From: Chloroflexota bacterium
GTDB taxonomy: Bacteria > Chloroflexota > Dehalococcoidia > DSGV01
Assembly (NCBI GenBank): GCA_021787985.1
Contig: JAJYLG010000030.1
Location: 1 to 34,008 of the forward strand
DNA: 34,008 bases
Direction: 5' to 3'
The notes below the pieces were generated by a model. It ran no database searches and was not told the DNA's origin. It was given only the letters and a program-made list of their open reading frames with translations. This document shows, one piece after another, positions 20,335-27,948 of this stretch. The position numbers and the translations under genes are program-made. Position 1 is the stretch's first letter. Every line of letters begins with the position of its first letter.

Positions 20335-21687
20335 TCACGCGCTTACGCCGGCCGGCGGCTGCAGATCCGCCGCACCGCCCTCGATCAGGCAGCTCACCCG
20401 CCGGCCTCGCGCCCTCAAGAAGCTCGCTGCCATCGTCGCACGATGTCCCGTGCGGCAGATCAGCAGCACCGGTTCATCGCCGACCTCGTCCGCCCAGGTC
20501 GGCAGGCCGTCGATCGGCCGCGGGAACACGCCGGGCAGCGGCGACGTCAGGTGCTCGTCCTCGAAGCGCACGTCCAGGACCGGCCGAGCGCCGCCCTCCA
20601 CGACCGCACGCGCTTCCTCGACCTCTAGCGTGTCCAGCGCGTCGACCGGCCGGTCGGCGGCCCAGTCCGCGAACGGGACGTACCCCCGCACGTCCTCGTA
20701 GCCGATGCGGAACAGCTCGACGGTCACGCGCTCGGCCTGGGCCTCGCCGTATGTGACCAGCACCAGCGGCGCATTGAACGGGATCAGCCAGCCGAAGTAG
20801 GCCAGCATCGACCCATCCTCCTCGATGACGACCGAACCGGGGACATGCCCGCGCACGAAGTCGAAACGACGCCGGACGTCGACGATCTGGACTCCTTCGG
20901 CGGCCAGGGCTCCGACAGCCGCCGGCGCCAGGCCAGCCGGCACGGGCGGCTGTCGGTACACCCGTGCGCCCGCGCGGTTGATGGGCGCCATGTGGCGGTA
21001 GTAGCCGGGCACGGGCGGCAGGTGCGCCAGGTGCCTCTCGCGAAACGCCTCGTAGTCGGACGTCAGCAGCGCCGGGTTTCGGCCGCGTTCCGCCGCCAGC
21101 GTCGCGCGGCGCTCGCTGCCCACGACCGCGGTGCTGCAAAACGAGCCCGCGCCGTGCGTCGGCAGGATCTCGCCGTCCGCGGGCAGCAGCCCGGCGATGC
21201 GCTGCGCCGACTCCCACTGCATGCGGGTCAGCGGCTCGGTGTGCGCCGGCCCGAGCAGGTCGGTGCGCCCCGCGGCCGCCATCAGCAGCGCGCCACCCGT
21301 GAAGGCGCCCCGGACCCTTCCGTCTTCATCGACCACCACGTACGCCGTGTGCTCATGCGTGTGTCCGGGGGTCGCCACCGCGCGCAGCCGCACCCGTCCG
21401 ACCGCGATCTCCTCTCCATCGGCCACGCCCCGGTGGGGGAGCTCCAACCGGGCCTGGGCGGGCGCGACCACCGTCGCACCCCGGGCCGCAAGCTCCGGTC
21501 CACCCGAGAGGTAGTCGTTGTGCACGTGCGTCTCGAAGGCGTAGGCGATGCGCGCCCCGCGCTCGGCCGCCGCGGCCATGTACGGCCGTACGTCGCGCTG
21601 CGGGTCCACAACCGCTGCCTCACCGTCGGACACGACAAGATAGGACGCGTCTCCCAGTGCATCGGCGACGAATTGGATGATTTCCAT
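20335..21687 (-). CDS. MBL-fold / double rhodanese protein (CstB-like, persulfide metabolism)
   Basis: 450 residues. Residues 1-230 are a metallo-beta-lactamase fold like ETHE1/persulfide dioxygenase: ETHVHNDYLSG with His54, His56 and Asp58, and TPGHTHEH with His109. Two rhodanese domains follow: about 250-345, with no active-site cysteine, and about 355-445 with Cys411 in LLICRTGHRA. CstB proteins oxidise low-molecular-weight persulfides and transfer sulfane sulfur. Oddity: at the ETHE1 iron ligand position (FTGD) this protein has FTGG (Gly132), so the standard third ligand is missing. The ATG has GGGAGG nine bases upstream. It lies 15 bases after the TauE/SafE gene. Confidence 0.86.
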   Translation of the reverse strand: MEIIQFVADALGDASYLVVSDGEAAVVDPQRDVRPYMAAAAERGARIAYAFETHVHNDYLSGGPELAARGATVVAPAQARLELPHRGVADGEEIAVGRVRLRAVATPGHTHEHTAYVVVDEDGRVRGAFTGGALLMAAAGRTDLLGPAHTEPLTRMQWESAQRIAGLLPADGEILPTHGAGSFCSTAVVGSERRATLAAERGRNPALLTSDYEAFRERHLAHLPPVPGYYRHMAPINRAGARVYRQPPVPAGLAPAAVGALAAEGVQIVDVRRRFDFVRGHVPGSVVIEEDGSMLAYFGWLIPFNAPLVLVTYGEAQAERVTVELFRIGYEDVRGYVPFADWAADRPVDALDTLEVEEARAVVEGGARPVLDVRFEDEHLTSPLPGVFPRPIDGLPTWADEVGDEPVLLICRTGHRATMAASFLRARGRRVSCLIEGGAADLQPPAGVSA

Positions 21688-21702
21688 GCGCTTCGGCCTC
21701 CC

Positions 21703-22467
21703 TCACGCCAGCACCACGGCCGCCTGCCGGTAGAGCAGGTAGACCGCGAGCAGCACGACCACCACCGCGAACGCCTCACGCAGCCGCTGGTCGCGCGAGC
21801 GGCCGGCAATGTGCGCGCCGGCGTAAATCCCTGCCACGCCTCCCACGACCATCAGCGCGGCCAGGCCCAGGTCGAGCGAGCCGCTGCGGATGTACGGGAT
21901 CAGGCCCGTGGCGCAGTTGATAGCGATCACCAGCAACGAGGTGCCGACGGCGTAGGTCATGCCCACGCCGAGCACCAGCACGAGCGCCGGCACGATGACG
22001 AAGCCGCCACCGACCCCGAAGAACCCCGTCATGAAGCCGACCACGCTGCCGGCCCCGGCCACCTTCCACCACGATTGGCGGCCCCGCGCCCGCAAGCTCG
22101 TGCCACGCTGGGCCCACATACGCCAGGCCGCGACCAGCATCAGCGCCGCGAGGCCCGCGAGCACCGCGTGGCCCGGCAGGACATGGTTGAGCCAGCCGCC
22201 GCCCAGCGCGCCACCCGTGCCCAGCAGCCCGAACAGCCCGCCCTGCCCCCAGAGCACGCGGCCCGCACGACCATGCACCAGCGCGCCGAAGGCCGCGTTC
22301 GCGCCCACGATGACCAACGAGGTCCCGGTTGCGGCGTGCACGTCCACGCCCAGCACGTAGACGAGAATGGGGATCGTCAGGATCGAGCCGCCGCCACCGA
22401 TCGCCCCCAGCGACAGACCGATCAGCATGCCAAGGGCGGTGGCGAGCATCCCCGCTGCGACCCCCAT
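21703..22467 (-). CDS. TauE/SafE-family membrane permease (sulfite/sulfur anion export)
   Basis: 254 residues with about eight transmembrane helices. Family features: the N-terminal GLSLGAIGGGGSILTIPILVYV and the second-half repeat VGFMTGFFGVGGGFVIVPALV, whose glycine-rich GGGG/GVGGG loops define TauE/SafE proteins. These export sulfite, sulfoacetate or related anions at the inner membrane. It sits between a rhodanese gene and the MBL/rhodanese gene in a cst-type operon, so a sulfur oxyanion is the likely cargo. ATG with AGGGG about 5-6 bases upstream. Confidence 0.88.
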   Translation of the reverse strand: MGVAAGMLATALGMLIGLSLGAIGGGGSILTIPILVYVLGVDVHAATGTSLVIVGANAAFGALVHGRAGRVLWGQGGLFGLLGTGGALGGGWLNHVLPGHAVLAGLAALMLVAAWRMWAQRGTSLRARGRQSWWKVAGAGSVVGFMTGFFGVGGGFVIVPALVLVLGVGMTYAVGTSLLVIAINCATGLIPYIRSGSLDLGLAALMVVGGVAGIYAGAHIAGRSRDQRLREAFAVVVVLLAVYLLYRQAAVVLA

Positions 22468-22494
22468 CCCAACCCCTGTGCCCGGGCGCCCGCC

Positions 22495-22833
22495 TTACCG
22501 GCGCGCGACGGGCAGACCCTCCGCGGCCCAGGCCCCGATGCCGCCCGCAACCGAGAGCGCATCGTAGCCGAGCTGCTGAAAGTACTGCGCCGCGGTCAGG
22601 CTGCGGTTCCCACTATGGCAGATGAACAGCACCGCGCGGTCGCGCGGCAGCTCGCCCGCCCGGGCGACGATCCCGTCCAGCGGGACGTGTTTCGCGTCGG
22701 GCGCATGCCCCTGCGTCCACTCCCATTGCTCGCGGACGTCCACCAGCACACCGGTGCCATCGCGCACCATCTCGTGCGCGCGGCGTGCATCGACCTCCAG
22801 CGCGCTGCGCGCGCCGTTGCGGAACCAACCCAT
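22495..22833 (-). CDS. Single-domain rhodanese (CstA-like sulfurtransferase)
   Basis: 112 residues, one rhodanese domain, cytosolic. Active-site loop CHSGNRS with Cys72; VDVREQWEWTQGHAPDAKHVPLD and AGGIGAWAAEGLPV are standard. It moves sulfane sulfur from persulfides to acceptors. The ATG has AGGAGGG eight bases upstream. It follows the CsoR/CstR-family gene by 48 bases. No TusA or DsrE domain is fused, unlike S. aureus CstA. Confidence 0.93.
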   Translation of the reverse strand: MGWFRNGARSALEVDARRAHEMVRDGTGVLVDVREQWEWTQGHAPDAKHVPLDGIVARAGELPRDRAVLFICHSGNRSLTAAQYFQQLGYDALSVAGGIGAWAAEGLPVARR

Positions 22834-22881
22834 TGGTTCGGCCCTCCTCTGTCCTGCTCCCGTCTGATCCGGAAAGGGCCG

Positions 22882-23175
22882 TCAGCCCGCGCGAGACAGC
22901 AGCCCGATGATGCGCGTGATCCGCGAGTGCGCCCCGGCGACCGTTGCCCCGCGCAGGCACTCGTCCACGTAGCCGTCGGCGATCTCCGCCGCTGCGCGGT
23001 CGAGCGCCGCCCTGGCAGCAAGGATCTGGGTGATGACCGCCTCGCAATCACGGTTCCCCTCGACCATGCGCGCGATGCCGCGCACCTGGCCCTCGATCTT
23101 GCGCAGACGGTCCAGCACCCGGCGCCTGCGCTCCCGGTCGATCTCATCTAGCGAGCTGTTCTCGTCGCGAACCAC
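22882..23175 (-). CDS. cstR: CsoR/CstR-family repressor, probably persulfide-sensing (CstR-type)
   Basis: 97 residues, DUF156 fold. The family uses Cys-x-His-Cys to sense copper in CsoR. Here Cys44 (NRDCEAV) and Cys73 (VDECLRG) are kept, but the His that lies four residues before the second Cys in CsoR is Tyr69. A two-cysteine site without His is the pattern of CstR, which senses persulfides through a disulfide or trisulfide. GTG start with GGGAGG six bases upstream. It heads the sulfur-stress operon, and an operator candidate lies just upstream. Confidence 0.85.
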   Translation of the reverse strand: MVRDENSSLDEIDRERRRRVLDRLRKIEGQVRGIARMVEGNRDCEAVITQILAARAALDRAAAEIADGYVDECLRGATVAGAHSRITRIIGLLSRAG

Positions 23176-23221: not shown

Positions 23222-23480
23222 GGCAAAGCCTCCTCGGCCGCGATAATCGGCCCAGGATTGCCGAGGTGTGTGCGTACCCGCCCCTGAGCGCCCAGGCCGC
23301 TCTTCGCCCTCGCCTCGACAGCCGCCCTGCGACGAACGGTGTCGCCCGACCGGAATCCTCGTCCTGTCACCGCCCCCACCGGCCTTGGCTGACCTCGGCA
23401 CGAGCAAACGCGGCCGGCCCGCCAGGCGCTCGCCGCGAGAGCGGAGACGCGGCCGGCGGACACTCAGGCGGTGGTGCCAC
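23222..23480. other. Non-coding spacer
   Basis: No supported gene. Short frames here on both strands are GC-biased and lack ribosome sites. One inverted repeat, GGCCG-CGATAAT-CGGCC, lies near 23237-23253. Otherwise I see nothing assignable. Confidence 0.5.
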
Positions 23481-23510
23481 TTGACACTTAGTATCAATAG
23501 GCCCTAGACT
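23481..23510 (+). promoter_or_regulatory. Promoter with Fur-type box ahead of the fur remnant
   Basis: -35 TTGACA (23481-23486), 18-base spacer, -10 TAGACT (23505-23510), then 6 bases to the ATG at 23517. The 15-bp box TGACACTTAGTATCA (23482-23496) overlaps the -35. The layout is identical to the promoter of the intact fur-like gene at 24857. Confidence 0.75.
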
Positions 23511-23516
23511 GCGGCC

Positions 23517-23699
23517 ATGATCAGTCAGTCCACCACCACTCCGCGCGCCCGCGCCGCCGAGCCGTCTCTCGGTGCGGCCGGCCGCCGCCTCACCCGCCCG
23601 CCCTGTTTCACCCCCGGCGCTCCTCCTCGCGCCGCCCAGCCTCGCCCGCTCGAGGTCGACCGACGCGGCGGCCACTGCCGGGCGCGCGGCGGCGGCTGA
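23517..23699 (+). pseudogene. Internally deleted copy of the fur/zur-like gene (60 residues, still open)
   Basis: The ORF starts MISQSTTTPRARAAEPSLGA and ends PLEVDRRGGHCRARGGG. These match the intact regulator at 24893 at both ends: MSSQSTLAPRVHAAEQSLGA at the start and WLEVYGRCADCRAREA at the end. Between them 261 bases (87 codons) are missing relative to the intact gene, so the frame is kept. The DNA-binding recognition helix, the HHHH metal site and the first C-x2-C are lost, and one cysteine of the last pair is gone. Upstream, the promoter and Fur-type box are also duplicated. Most likely a decaying duplicate; a functional micro-protein is possible but unsupported. Confidence 0.75.
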
Positions 23700-23753: not shown

Positions 23754-23768
23754 TGATACTAAGTCTCA
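23754..23768. promoter_or_regulatory. Fur-type box upstream of the NicO-like gene
   Basis: TGATACTAAGTCTCA, a 15-bp 7-1-7 palindrome with 6 of 7 arm positions matching. It is 90 bases before the NicO/UreH-like start. The sequence CATATAGC follows and may hold a -10. It matches the boxes at 23482, 24858 and 25389. Confidence 0.65.
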
Positions 23769-23858
23769 TATAGCACCCGGCGAGAGCGCCCGGGCGCCCG
23801 CGCCGCTCCGCCTCCCAGCAACCAGCGCACGCGTTCGCCGCGCAGAAAGAGCACTACC

Positions 23859-24710
23859 ATGCATGAACTACTAGACCCAGGCGCCGGCCTCCCGGTGCCG
23901 CTGCTGCTTGCCGCGGCCTTCCTGCTCGGCGTGTTGCACGGCATCACGCCCGACGAGCATACCTGGCCGATCACCTTCTCATACGCCATCGGCGGCTTCA
24001 GCACGCGGCGCGGGATGTTGTCCGGCTTTCTGTTCTCGCTGGCCTTCACCCTGCAGCGCGCCATCGCCGCCGAGCTCGCGGCCCTCGCGCTGGTCGGCTT
24101 TCTTTCGCTCCCCCATTTCGAGGAGGCCTTGTACGTGGTCGTCGGCCTGCTGATGGTGCTGGCAGGGCGCTACCTACATCGCCACGGCCACGCCCTGCAC
24201 CTCTTCCACCACGAGGTAGGTGAGGAGCCACTGGAGACCGGCAGGCCGGTGCCGGCGAAGCTCGCCCTGCTCCACGGCTTCGTCGCCGGCTGGGGGACCG
24301 GCGCCTTCGCGACCGTGATCTACGCGGCGCTGGCGCCCGCCATGCCGAGCGTGTACCTGGGGTGGGTCCCCGGCCTGATGTTCGGCCTCGGCACGATGGT
24401 GACCATGGTGCTGTTCGGCGCCGCCGTCGGCGCCTGGATGCAGTCGCGGCACATGGGCGTCGACGCGATGGCGTTTGTCGGGCGCCGGGTTTCCAGCACC
24501 ACGCTCTTCTGGGGCGGCTGGGTGTTCGTGCTGGCAGGGATCGTCGGGCTGCTCGTGCCGCTCAACGACCTCGTCATCACGACCCCGGTGCGGTGGTACA
24601 GCCTCCATCACCTGAGCATCGGATTCCTGCTGATGGTGGGCGCGCTCTTCGTGATCGCGGTCGGAGCGTTCTGGGACGCGACACGCACGGCGCGACTGCG
24701 CTTCCGCTAG
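23859..24710 (+). CDS. NicO/UreH-like polytopic membrane protein, putative metal transporter
   Basis: 283 residues with about six to seven transmembrane helices. The first helix ends in HGITPDEHTWPI, which resembles the H-x4-D-H metal motif of NicO/RcnA/UreH-type nickel-cobalt transporters with one extra residue. Between helices 3 and 4 is a histidine-rich cytoplasmic loop (YLHRHGHALHLFHHEVG), common in metal transporters. A second motif, LHGFVAGWGTGAF, lies at about 135-147. ATG chosen; only a weak Shine-Dalgarno (GAAAGAG). A Fur-type box upstream and the zinc importer downstream suggest metal-responsive expression. Whether it imports, exports or acts as an accessory is unknown. Confidence 0.72.
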   Translation: MHELLDPGAGLPVPLLLAAAFLLGVLHGITPDEHTWPITFSYAIGGFSTRRGMLSGFLFSLAFTLQRAIAAELAALALVGFLSLPHFEEALYVVVGLLMVLAGRYLHRHGHALHLFHHEVGEEPLETGRPVPAKLALLHGFVAGWGTGAFATVIYAALAPAMPSVYLGWVPGLMFGLGTMVTMVLFGAAVGAWMQSRHMGVDAMAFVGRRVSSTTLFWGGWVFVLAGIVGLLVPLNDLVITTPVRWYSLHHLSIGFLLMVGALFVIAVGAFWDATRTARLRFR

Positions 24711-24772: not shown

Positions 24773-24856
24773 TTCGTATCTGGAGGACAGCCCCAGACCC
24801 CGGCGGTGTTCGCGGCGGGACCGCAGCGCCCCCGCGTTCCCCCTGCCCGGGATTTC

Positions 24857-24886
24857 TTGACACTAGGTATCACTAAGCTCTAAACT
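24857..24886 (+). promoter_or_regulatory. Promoter and Fur-type box of the fur/zur-like gene
   Basis: -35 TTGACA (24857-24862), 18-base spacer, -10 TAAACT (24881-24886), 6 bases to the ATG. The box TGACACTAGGTATCA (24858-24872) covers the -35, so repressor binding would block RNA polymerase and give autoregulation. The spacing to the ATG implies a leaderless message. Confidence 0.78.
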
Positions 24887-24892
24887 GCCACT

Positions 24893-25336
24893 ATGTCGAG
24901 CCAGTCTACCCTCGCCCCGCGCGTCCACGCCGCGGAGCAGTCGCTCGGCGCGGCGGGCTACCGCCTTACCCGCCCCCGCCGCGAGTTGTTGCGCGCCATC
25001 GCCGCCATGCCCGACCACTTCACTCCCGACGAGCTCATCCACGCCGTCGGCCCTGCCGTCGGCCGCGCTACCGTCTTCCGCACCATCCGCATGCTGACCG
25101 AGCGCGACCTTCTCTGCCGCGTCCGCCTCGAGGACGGCACCCTCGCCTACCGCTGGAGCGGCGCCGGTCACCACCACCACCTCGTCTGCGTGAGCTGCGG
25201 GCGCGTCGACGACCTCCAGGGTTGCGATATCGACTCCGACCTCGCCCGCCTCGCCGCCGCGAGCGGGTTTGCCGTCGACGGGCACTGGCTCGAGGTCTAC
25301 GGCCGCTGCGCCGACTGCCGGGCGCGGGAAGCCTGA
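24893..25336 (+). CDS. Fur-family metalloregulator, Zur-like
   Basis: 147 residues. Winged-helix domain at the N-terminus: GYRLTRPRRELLRAI, then FTPDELIHAV and VGRATVFRTIRMLTERDLL (recognition helix). Metal-binding segment HHHH (93-96) with LVCVSCGRVDDL, giving Cys99 and Cys102, and a second structural zinc pair Cys139 and Cys142 in YGRCADC. Fur, Zur, Mur and Nur cannot be told apart by motif alone; the neighbouring importer with three His ligands supports zinc. Its promoter carries the 15-bp box, and the importer genes follow 17 bases later in the same direction. A truncated copy lies upstream. Confidence 0.9.
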   Translation: MSSQSTLAPRVHAAEQSLGAAGYRLTRPRRELLRAIAAMPDHFTPDELIHAVGPAVGRATVFRTIRMLTERDLLCRVRLEDGTLAYRWSGAGHHHHLVCVSCGRVDDLQGCDIDSDLARLAAASGFAVDGHWLEVYGRCADCRAREA

Positions 25337-25353: not shown

Positions 25354-26295
25354 ATGCGATCACCCCTTCGCCGTCGGCCCGGCAAGAGTGATACCTGGTA
25401 TCGACACGTGCTGCCCACGGCCGCGGTCCTCTTCCTCGCCGCCCTCGCGGCCGCCTGCGGCAGCCGCGGGACTGCGACCCCGGCAGGCAAGCCGCTCATC
25501 GTGGGCACGACCACTCAAATCGCCGACATCGTTCGCAACATCGCCGGCGACCGGGCTGCCGTGGTCTCGCTCGTCGGACCCAACCGAGACCCCCACGACT
25601 ACGAGCCGACCACGGATGCTGTGGAGCAGGTCGCGCGCTCGCGCGTCGTCTTCAAGAACGGTGCCGGGCTGGACGATTGGCTGGACCGCGTCCTCAAGAA
25701 CGCCGGCGGCTCCCGCCCGACCGTGGACCTCTCCGCCGTCGTTCACCTGCGTTACGACGCCGGCCAGCCCGACCCCCACTACTGGATGGACCCCACGAAC
25801 GTGGAGCGCATGGTCCCGGCCATCCGCGATGCCTTGGTCGCGGCCGATCCGGCCGATGCCACCGCCTACCGCGCCAACGCCAACCGCTACCTGCAGCAGG
25901 TGCGGACCATGGACGCGCAGGTCAAGTCCATCTTCGACACCGTCCCCACGGCGGGCCGCAAGCTGGTCACTGATCACGACGCGTTCCACTACTTCGCCGA
26001 TCACTTCGGGCTCGACTATGTCGGCACTATCCTCCGCGGGCTCAGCACCAGCTCGGAGCCAACCACCCAGCAGCTCGCGGCGCTCGTCGGGGCGATCCGC
26101 GACCAGGGGGTCAAAGCCATCTTCGCTGAGGCGAGCCTCAACCCGAAGCTGGCTGAGCAGATCGGCAGGGATGCCGGCGTCAAGGTGGTCACAGACCTCT
26201 ACGGCGACAGTCTGGGACCGCCCGGCTCCGATGCTGGCACTTACATCGGCATGATGGTGTCCAACGCGCGGGCCATCGCGGAGGCGTTGCGGTGA
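25354..26295 (+). CDS. znuA: Metal ABC transporter substrate-binding lipoprotein, ZnuA-like
   Basis: 313 residues from the ATG; a hydrophobic export signal (VLPTAAVLFLAALAAAC) ends at Cys35 in an imperfect lipobox (AAAC). The cluster A-1 family delivers Zn or Mn to an ABC-3 permease. Ligands seen: His81 in DPHDYEPT, His142 in DPHYWMDPTN, His208 in VTDHDAFHYFA, and Asp285 in DLYGDSLG. His rather than Glu at the third position is typical of ZnuA-type zinc binders, not PsaA/MntC. No His-rich loop. The start is uncertain: a Fur-type box (25389-25403) lies inside codons 12-17, and the GTG at 25408 is a possible alternative giving 295 residues. The stop overlaps the next gene (GTGA). Confidence 0.9.
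   Translation: MRSPLRRRPGKSDTWYRHVLPTAAVLFLAALAAACGSRGTATPAGKPLIVGTTTQIADIVRNIAGDRAAVVSLVGPNRDPHDYEPTTDAVEQVARSRVVFKNGAGLDDWLDRVLKNAGGSRPTVDLSAVVHLRYDAGQPDPHYWMDPTNVERMVPAIRDALVAADPADATAYRANANRYLQQVRTMDAQVKSIFDTVPTAGRKLVTDHDAFHYFADHFGLDYVGTILRGLSTSSEPTTQQLAALVGAIRDQGVKAIFAEASLNPKLAEQIGRDAGVKVVTDLYGDSLGPPGSDAGTYIGMMVSNARAIAEALR
25389..25403. promoter_or_regulatory. Fur-type box at the start of the znuA-like gene
   Basis: TGATACCTGGTATCG; its core GATACC-T-GGTATC is a perfect 13-bp palindrome, the most symmetric of the four. With the ATG at 25354 it is intragenic; with a GTG start at 25408 it would lie in the promoter. Confidence 0.7.
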
Positions 26296-27086
26296 GTCAG
26301 AGCCTCCCCGCCGTCGAGATCGTCGACCTCACCGTGGCGTACGGCGAGCGGGTGGCGTTGCGCCGCCTGAGCCTGACGCTGCCGCCCGCTGCGTTCGTGA
26401 GCGTCATCGGGCCGAACGGCTCGGGCAAGAGCACCATGCTGCGTGCGGTGGCCGGCATGGTGCGGGCCCGTCACGGTGGCGTGCGCATCTTCGGCCAGTC
26501 GGTGCAGCGCGCCCGCGGCCGCATCGCCTATGTGCCGCAGCGAGAGGAGGTGCACTGGGAGTTCCCCGTGACCGTGCAAGAAGTGGCCGAGATGGGGCGC
26601 TACTCCCGGGCGGGTTGGCTGCGCCCCCTCTCCCACCCCGACCACGCGGCCGCGCTCGACGCGCTGCGCCAGGTGGGGCTCGCCGACCGCGCCGGGGAGC
26701 AGATCGTGAATCTCTCCGGCGGCCAGCAACAGCGGGTCTTCATCGGACGCGCCCTTGCCCGGCAGGCCGGCCTGCTGCTGCTCGACGAGCCGCTCAACGG
26801 CGTGGACGCGGCCAGCCAGGACCAGGTGATCCATCTCCTGCAGCGCCAGGTCGGCCAGGGCGCGACCGTGGTCATGGCCACCCACGACCTGGAGATGGCC
26901 GGCCACGTCTCGACCCACCTCGTCTTCCTGAACGAAGGACGCCTGGTTGCCTTCGGCCCGCCGGTCGAAGCCCTCACGGCCGAGACGCTGCGGCGCACCT
27001 ACGGGGGGCAGCTCCTCTTCCACGAAGCTCTCGTCACCCATCGCCCGGTCGACGTGGGAGCTGCGCATCATGAACGCCATCGCTAG
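26292..27086 (+). CDS. znuC: Metal ABC transporter ATPase, ZnuC-like
   Basis: 264 residues. Walker A GPNGSGKST, Q-loop YVPQREEV, signature LSGGQQQRV, Walker B LLLLDEPLNG, and H-loop ATHDLEM. The sequence order and VTVQEVAEMGRY fit the manganese/zinc/iron transport ATPases. GTG start overlaps the znuA stop as GTGA, and the end overlaps the permease start by 17 bases, so all three importer genes are translationally coupled. It hydrolyses ATP to drive import across the inner membrane. Confidence 0.93.
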   Translation: MSQSLPAVEIVDLTVAYGERVALRRLSLTLPPAAFVSVIGPNGSGKSTMLRAVAGMVRARHGGVRIFGQSVQRARGRIAYVPQREEVHWEFPVTVQEVAEMGRYSRAGWLRPLSHPDHAAALDALRQVGLADRAGEQIVNLSGGQQQRVFIGRALARQAGLLLLDEPLNGVDAASQDQVIHLLQRQVGQGATVVMATHDLEMAGHVSTHLVFLNEGRLVAFGPPVEALTAETLRRTYGGQLLFHEALVTHRPVDVGAAHHERHR

Positions 27087-27948
27087 CTGGTTCACCGACC
27101 CGATGCAGTTCCAGTTCTTCCGCCACGCGCTCGGTGCGGTGCTCATCATGGGGCTGCTCTGTGGCGCCCTGGGCACCTTCGTGGTGCTGCGCGGCTGGTC
27201 GTTCTTCGGCGACGCGCTGACCCACGCGGTCTTCCCGGGCGTCGTGGTCGCCCAGATCGTCGGCGGGTCGTTCTTCGCCGGTGGGCTCGTGGCCGGCCTG
27301 CTCACGTCGCTGGCGATCGGCGTCGTGGCACGCAGCCGCCGCGTCACCGCCGATACCGCCATCGGCGTGCTCTTCGTCGGCGCGTTCTCCCTCGGTGTGT
27401 TCCTGCTGAGTCGTACCGTCAGCTACCGGCAGGACCTGAGCGCGTTCCTCTTCGGCCAGGTCCTCGGCGTTTCCACCGCCGATCTCGTCGTGTCGACGAT
27501 CATGGGCACGCTCGTGATCGGCATCACCCTGGCGATCTTCAAGGAGCTGAAGCTGGCCGCCTTCGATCCGGTGAGCGCCGCGGCCATGGGCTACCCGGTC
27601 TTCGCGCTCGACCTGCTGCTTCTCGGCCTGCTTACGGTAACCATCGTGGTGGCGCTCAAGACCGTCGGCAACATCCTCGTTCTCGCGATGATCGTCACCC
27701 CGGCCGCGACGGCGCGCCTCTACGCTGAGCGCCTCAGCAGCATGATGCTGTTCGCCGCGGCCCTCGGGGCGATCGAGGGAGTGCTGGGGCTGTTCCTCGC
27801 GGCGCACCTCGACGTGCCACCCGGAAGCACGATCGTCCTGCTCGCCACGGCGGTCTTCCTCGCGGGGCTCGGGCTCTCGCCACGGGGCGGCCTGCCGGCG
27901 TACCTGCGCCAGCGGCGGGCCAGCGCGGCCGAGCGCCCGGACGCGTGA
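27070..27948 (+). CDS. znuB: Metal ABC-3 permease, ZnuB-like
   Basis: 292 residues, about eight to nine transmembrane helices. ABC-3 family features: FFRHALGAVLIMGLLCGALGTFVVLRGWSFFGDALTHAVFPGVVV at the N-terminus and VSAAAMGYPVF, VALKTVGNILVLAMIVTPAATARLYA in the second half. Start ATG preceded by GGGAGC; the start overlaps the ATPase gene by 17 bases. It forms the channel of the importer fed by the ZnuA-like lipoprotein. Confidence 0.92.
   Translation: MNAIASWFTDPMQFQFFRHALGAVLIMGLLCGALGTFVVLRGWSFFGDALTHAVFPGVVVAQIVGGSFFAGGLVAGLLTSLAIGVVARSRRVTADTAIGVLFVGAFSLGVFLLSRTVSYRQDLSAFLFGQVLGVSTADLVVSTIMGTLVIGITLAIFKELKLAAFDPVSAAAMGYPVFALDLLLLGLLTVTIVVALKTVGNILVLAMIVTPAATARLYAERLSSMMLFAAALGAIEGVLGLFLAAHLDVPPGSTIVLLATAVFLAGLGLSPRGGLPAYLRQRRASAAERPDA

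Follow-up and report, generated by a model that had tools for sequence, protein, structure and literature searches.

What is a short reading frame that resembles an abridged fur gene, promoter included, doing immediately upstream of a membrane-protein gene and 1.4 kb before an intact fur? The locus lies in a window of 34,008 bases, which is one entire contig out of the 189 that make up a 3.5 Mb draft genome (features are on the forward strand unless stated otherwise). We consider it highly probable that the frame is a lineage-specific duplicate of the znu-linked fur that has decayed, and that its promoter-operator now possibly drives the membrane gene.

The duplication is directly visible. Positions 23480-23599 match 24856-24975 as a direct repeat at an offset of 1376, with 77% identity over 120 nt and a local score of 101, compared with 37 for the best match elsewhere in the window. 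The repeat takes in a promoter, a 7-1-7 operator, and a 6-base gap before the ATG, and continues to codon 28 of the intact Fur-family gene. A promoter scan independently recovers both promoters with the same layout: TTGACA, an 18-base spacer, and TAGACT at 23481-23510 for the remnant, and TTGACA, an 18-base spacer, and TAAACT at 24857-24886 for intact fur. It finds three promoter-like sites in the region vs. 0.1 in shuffles. The ATG follows the -10 element by 6 bases in both copies (23517 in the remnant, 24893 in intact fur), a spacing typical of leaderless genes, in which TA-like signals stand about 10 bp ahead of the start (PMC3160421). The repeat and the scan confirm the first-pass annotation, which had reported a parallel copy at 23481-23590 with -35, 18-base spacer, -10, box, and 6 bases to the ATG; the end of the second copy, given there as 24967, falls at 24966 under the offset of 1376. 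Upstream of the -35 and downstream of the stop, homology between the two copies does not exceed that of shuffles, and the recognizable duplication therefore begins at the -35. In a draft genome of 189 contigs, a repeat of this kind might be an assembly artefact or a chimera. We regard this as extremely improbable, since copies created by misassembling a single gene are nearly identical, whereas these are 23% different and the smaller one carries several indels; the operators and neighboring genes also make sense together.

Three pieces of fur can be recognized in the remnant. The first, at 23517-23600, corresponds to codons 1-28 with 21/28 residues identical, which bears out the earlier count of about 28 retained N-terminal residues. 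The last, at 23648-23686, matches 25288-25326 at 33/39 bases in the same frame (0/1000 shuffles as good) and keeps one of the two cysteines of the final CxxC; the recognizable C-terminus comes to about 13 codons rather than the 15 residues proposed before. Between them, an eroded piece at 23607-23647 aligns to fur codons 43-58 (25019-25066) with frameshifting gaps. Taken as 23607-23649, this alignment has four small gaps and a score of 29, with 8/1000 shuffles as good, and a slightly shorter segment is weaker (22/500 shuffles as good); homology of the middle piece is likely but not certain. Missing from the remnant are about 42 bases of fur after codon 28 and about 220 before the C-terminal piece. 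The net difference in length (444 - 183 = 261 nt) agrees with the 261 bases first reported as lost with the frame kept. The frame closes only in net, the sum of the losses being by chance a multiple of three. A single in-frame deletion does not describe the change, because the small gaps in the alignment of 23607-23649 to fur 25019-25066 put this piece out of frame. No fewer than two large deletions, along with several small indels that shift the frame, were likely involved in the decay.

The losses extend to the DNA-binding region and the metal site. Within 23517-23699 there is no winged helix, as only codons 1-28 are colinear and the recognition-helix region is absent. Of the metal site, the HHHH residues and the first CxxC are gone and the second CxxC is reduced to GGHC, so that the remnant is without recognition helix and metal site, as had been stated. 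The coding signal is missing as well. GC content at first, second, and third positions of remnant codons 29-60 is 0.88/0.75/0.78 vs. 0.74/0.53/0.92 in fur, and real genes here have 0.45-0.53 at second and 0.87-0.92 at third positions. We rejected the open 60-aa frame as a sign of coding because 83% of shuffles of codons 29-60 are also free of stops. For the N-terminal part, dN/dS between the two copies is estimated at 0.35, and the bootstrap range (0.08-1.09) is too wide for selection on the peptide to be either shown or excluded. A functional short protein, translated from this frame and acting, for example, on Fur dimers or another partner, would account for an open frame with a promoter and a start and for a dN/dS point estimate below 1. 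It is nonetheless a very unlikely reading, given the absent codon periodicity beyond codon 28, the frameshifted middle, the lack of any DNA-binding or metal site, and the lack of relatives. The 60-aa ORF also has no match in Pfam or NCBIfam. Colinear homology to an intact paralogue, together with disabling changes and the loss of coding signal, identifies the remnant on sequence grounds as a fur pseudogene, and the several deletions, frameshifted middle, lost periodicity, and lost functional residues support the earlier suggestion of a decaying paralogue.

The parent can be sought among the Fur proteins of the class. The intact regulator (P0001, 147 aa, 24893-25336) matches PF01475 with an E value of 1e-24, and in the tree it groups with the Furs of the class that are linked to znu (83/87) and away from those that neighbor the membrane gene elsewhere. 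Its N-terminal residues resemble those of the remnant, as do those of no other Fur in the tree set. The best reading is that the duplicate is lineage-specific and derives from this znu-linked, Zur-like gene 1.4 kb downstream. By domain searches, the genes that follow (25354-27948) encode a ZnuA/MntC-like binding protein, an ATPase, and an ABC-3 permease. This cluster scores alike on zinc (AztC/A/B) and manganese (MntC/A) models, all below cut-offs, and the metal of the regulon would be zinc or manganese.

A motif scan places Fur-type 7-1-7 operators throughout the locus. The remnant carries TGACACT-T-AGTATCA at 23482-23496, overlapping the -35 and spacer of its promoter, and intact fur carries TGACACT-A-GGTATCA at 24858-24872; the remnant box is the better palindrome of the two. 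A further operator, TGATACT-A-AGTCTCA at 23754-23768, lies some 90 bases upstream of the membrane gene, and a fourth, weaker one with three mismatches, TGATACC-T-GGTATCG, is found at the start of znuA (25389-25403). The four sites in the window compare with 0.08 expected. Close matches are confined to this locus: TGATACTnAGTATCA with up to two mismatches occurs at three sites in the 3.5 Mb genome (23482, 23754, and 24858), all inside 1.4 kb. At three mismatches the genome has 13 further sites, which we take, without proof, as background; the 12 loci inspected are mostly in or beside unrelated reading frames. Two side observations concern these boxes. If znuA starts at ATG 25354, the fourth operator falls inside its frame; the real start may be GTG 25408, which comes just past the box and immediately precedes a lipoprotein-like signal. 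The operators at 23482 and 23754 also match in inverted orientation past the box (23473-23496 vs. 23754-23777, GGTGC...GCACC, 20/24), possibly by chance.

The same box recurs close to fur, znuA, or both in many relatives of the class (L007, L013, L017, L019, L021, L022, L025, L031, and L034). It stands immediately ahead of fur, in the interval between fur and znuA, or in both places, as with TGATACTAAGTATCA (L017), TGATACTGAGTATCA (L022 and L025), and TGATACTAGGTATCA (L013). Because relatives share it at these positions, the box is most likely the ancestral operator of the intact Fur. A 7-1-7 inverted repeat at fur and metal-uptake promoters that is common to relatives is what a Fur/Zur operator would look like, and the intact Fur presumably binds it. 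The first-pass annotation had raised the possibility that the extra operator titrates the repressor, which would set the threshold of the regulon. The extra, near-perfect box does exist. Titration itself is weakly supported and appears highly improbable, since the locus has four sites in cis, the remnant box being one of them, autoregulation of the repressor would offset a single extra site, and a cis role as operator for 23859-24710 is simpler.

Whether that cis role is real turns on how the promoter has fared. Remnant and fur promoter-operators differ at 2/21 positions vs. 7/15 neighboring positions (P = 0.019, in a small test chosen post hoc). Such lower divergence fits, and does not prove, a retained role as a metal-responsive promoter. 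In the stretch from the remnant promoter-operator to the membrane gene, no terminator was detected, and for this reason the remnant promoter would most likely add to transcription of that gene. The operator at 23754 speaks against any need for it: with a box of its own, the membrane gene may not depend on the remnant promoter. We therefore also weighed the case in which gene and promoter are both decaying, the membrane gene is driven from the 23754 site alone, and the promoter looks intact through recent loss. The membrane gene's own box and the statistical weakness of the promoter conservation favor this case. Against it, divergence at the -35, operator, and -10 is lower than at neighboring positions, and the palindrome in the remnant box is better than the one at intact fur. 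This case has close to an even chance, and for the promoter itself it is about as likely as a retained switch. Taken alone, service of the membrane gene by the remnant promoter is possible, with a chance somewhat short of even.

The membrane gene (23859-24710) encodes a putative metal transporter of a family with an invariant HG..PDEHTWPI..SYAIG. This assignment draws on context and on analogy, as the HGITPDEH motif resembles the HX4DH motif of NiCoT transporters. In Pfam, no family exceeds the cut-off (DsbD_2 lies below it), and the predicted structure (mean pLDDT 81) has no match in the PDB at E <= 0.001. Within the class, the gene has weak partial matches only, and none of its homologues was found on plasmids. 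Clear homologues are present in other Chloroflexota groups, with 41-51% identity in the alignment. These homologues span L057-L080, and in 16 of 22 distinct Chloroflexota loci a Fur gene lies no more than about 1.5 kb away: directly upstream on the same strand in L066-L072 and L075, downstream in L057, L058, L060, L061, L063, and L077, and divergent in L059 and L065. A similar 7-1-7 box precedes few of the homologues (L059, L063, and L074), and most are without one. L066-L072 and L075 all come from a single Chloroflexota family; in the tree their Fur-like proteins are set off by a very long branch (4.1 changes per column) and possibly represent a diverged subfamily of Fur. The one relative from a GTDB contig scan (L034, of the same class) has fur and znu genes, with the membrane gene absent from its 7.3 kb contig. 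On the other side of the remnant, the minus strand at 20335-23175 encodes in a row a CsoR-type repressor, a single rhodanese, a TauE/SafE exporter, and a metallo-beta-lactamase-rhodanese fusion, a gene row that resembles a persulfide-responsive (cst-like) operon. An Rfam search of the window returned nothing.

In the simplest history, as we infer it, the membrane gene would have arrived beside a native fur-znuABC locus, and fur would then have been duplicated around it. The upstream copy would have decayed, keeping its promoter, operator, and 28 codons and making no working regulator. The remaining promoter-operator would most likely be active in step with fur-znuABC under metal scarcity and add transcription of 23859-24710. 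Put more broadly, a regulator would have been converted into a promoter: a fur duplicated beside a horizontally acquired transporter gene decays, and its leaderless, autoregulated promoter puts the newcomer under the intact paralogue. We propose this tentatively, as a minority reading. Decay of a duplicated, autoregulated repressor from the coding side with persistence of its promoter-operator offers a plausible route for a new gene into an existing metal regulon, with a modest general effect. The locus also points to an uncharacterized Chloroflexota membrane family with recurrent Fur linkage, a candidate for metal transport.

Repeated duplication of fur has been described in Actinobacteria (PMC2464607), and we found no precedent in the literature searched for a fur remnant with a retained promoter. 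As a regulator pseudogene whose promoter-operator persists, the case is of an ordinary kind and is mildly interesting for possible promoter reuse. It shares with other pseudogenes of duplicated regulators recognizable ends, internal deletions, and frameshifts, and differs in that promoter and operator are near intact and stand before another gene. The intact copy resembles Zur-like regulators beside znuABC in its Fur domain, HHHH and two CxxC motifs, its ZnuA, ATPase, and ABC-3 neighbors, and the box at its own promoter, whereas here the half-site is TGATACT, close box matches occur at one locus only, and the protein reaches no curated NCBIfam equivalog cut-off. Finally, Fur-linked loci of other Chloroflexota likewise place the same membrane family beside a Fur gene, sometimes upstream on the same strand, but there the Fur is an open gene from other branches of the tree, whereas here its position is taken by the remnant of a znu-linked Fur.
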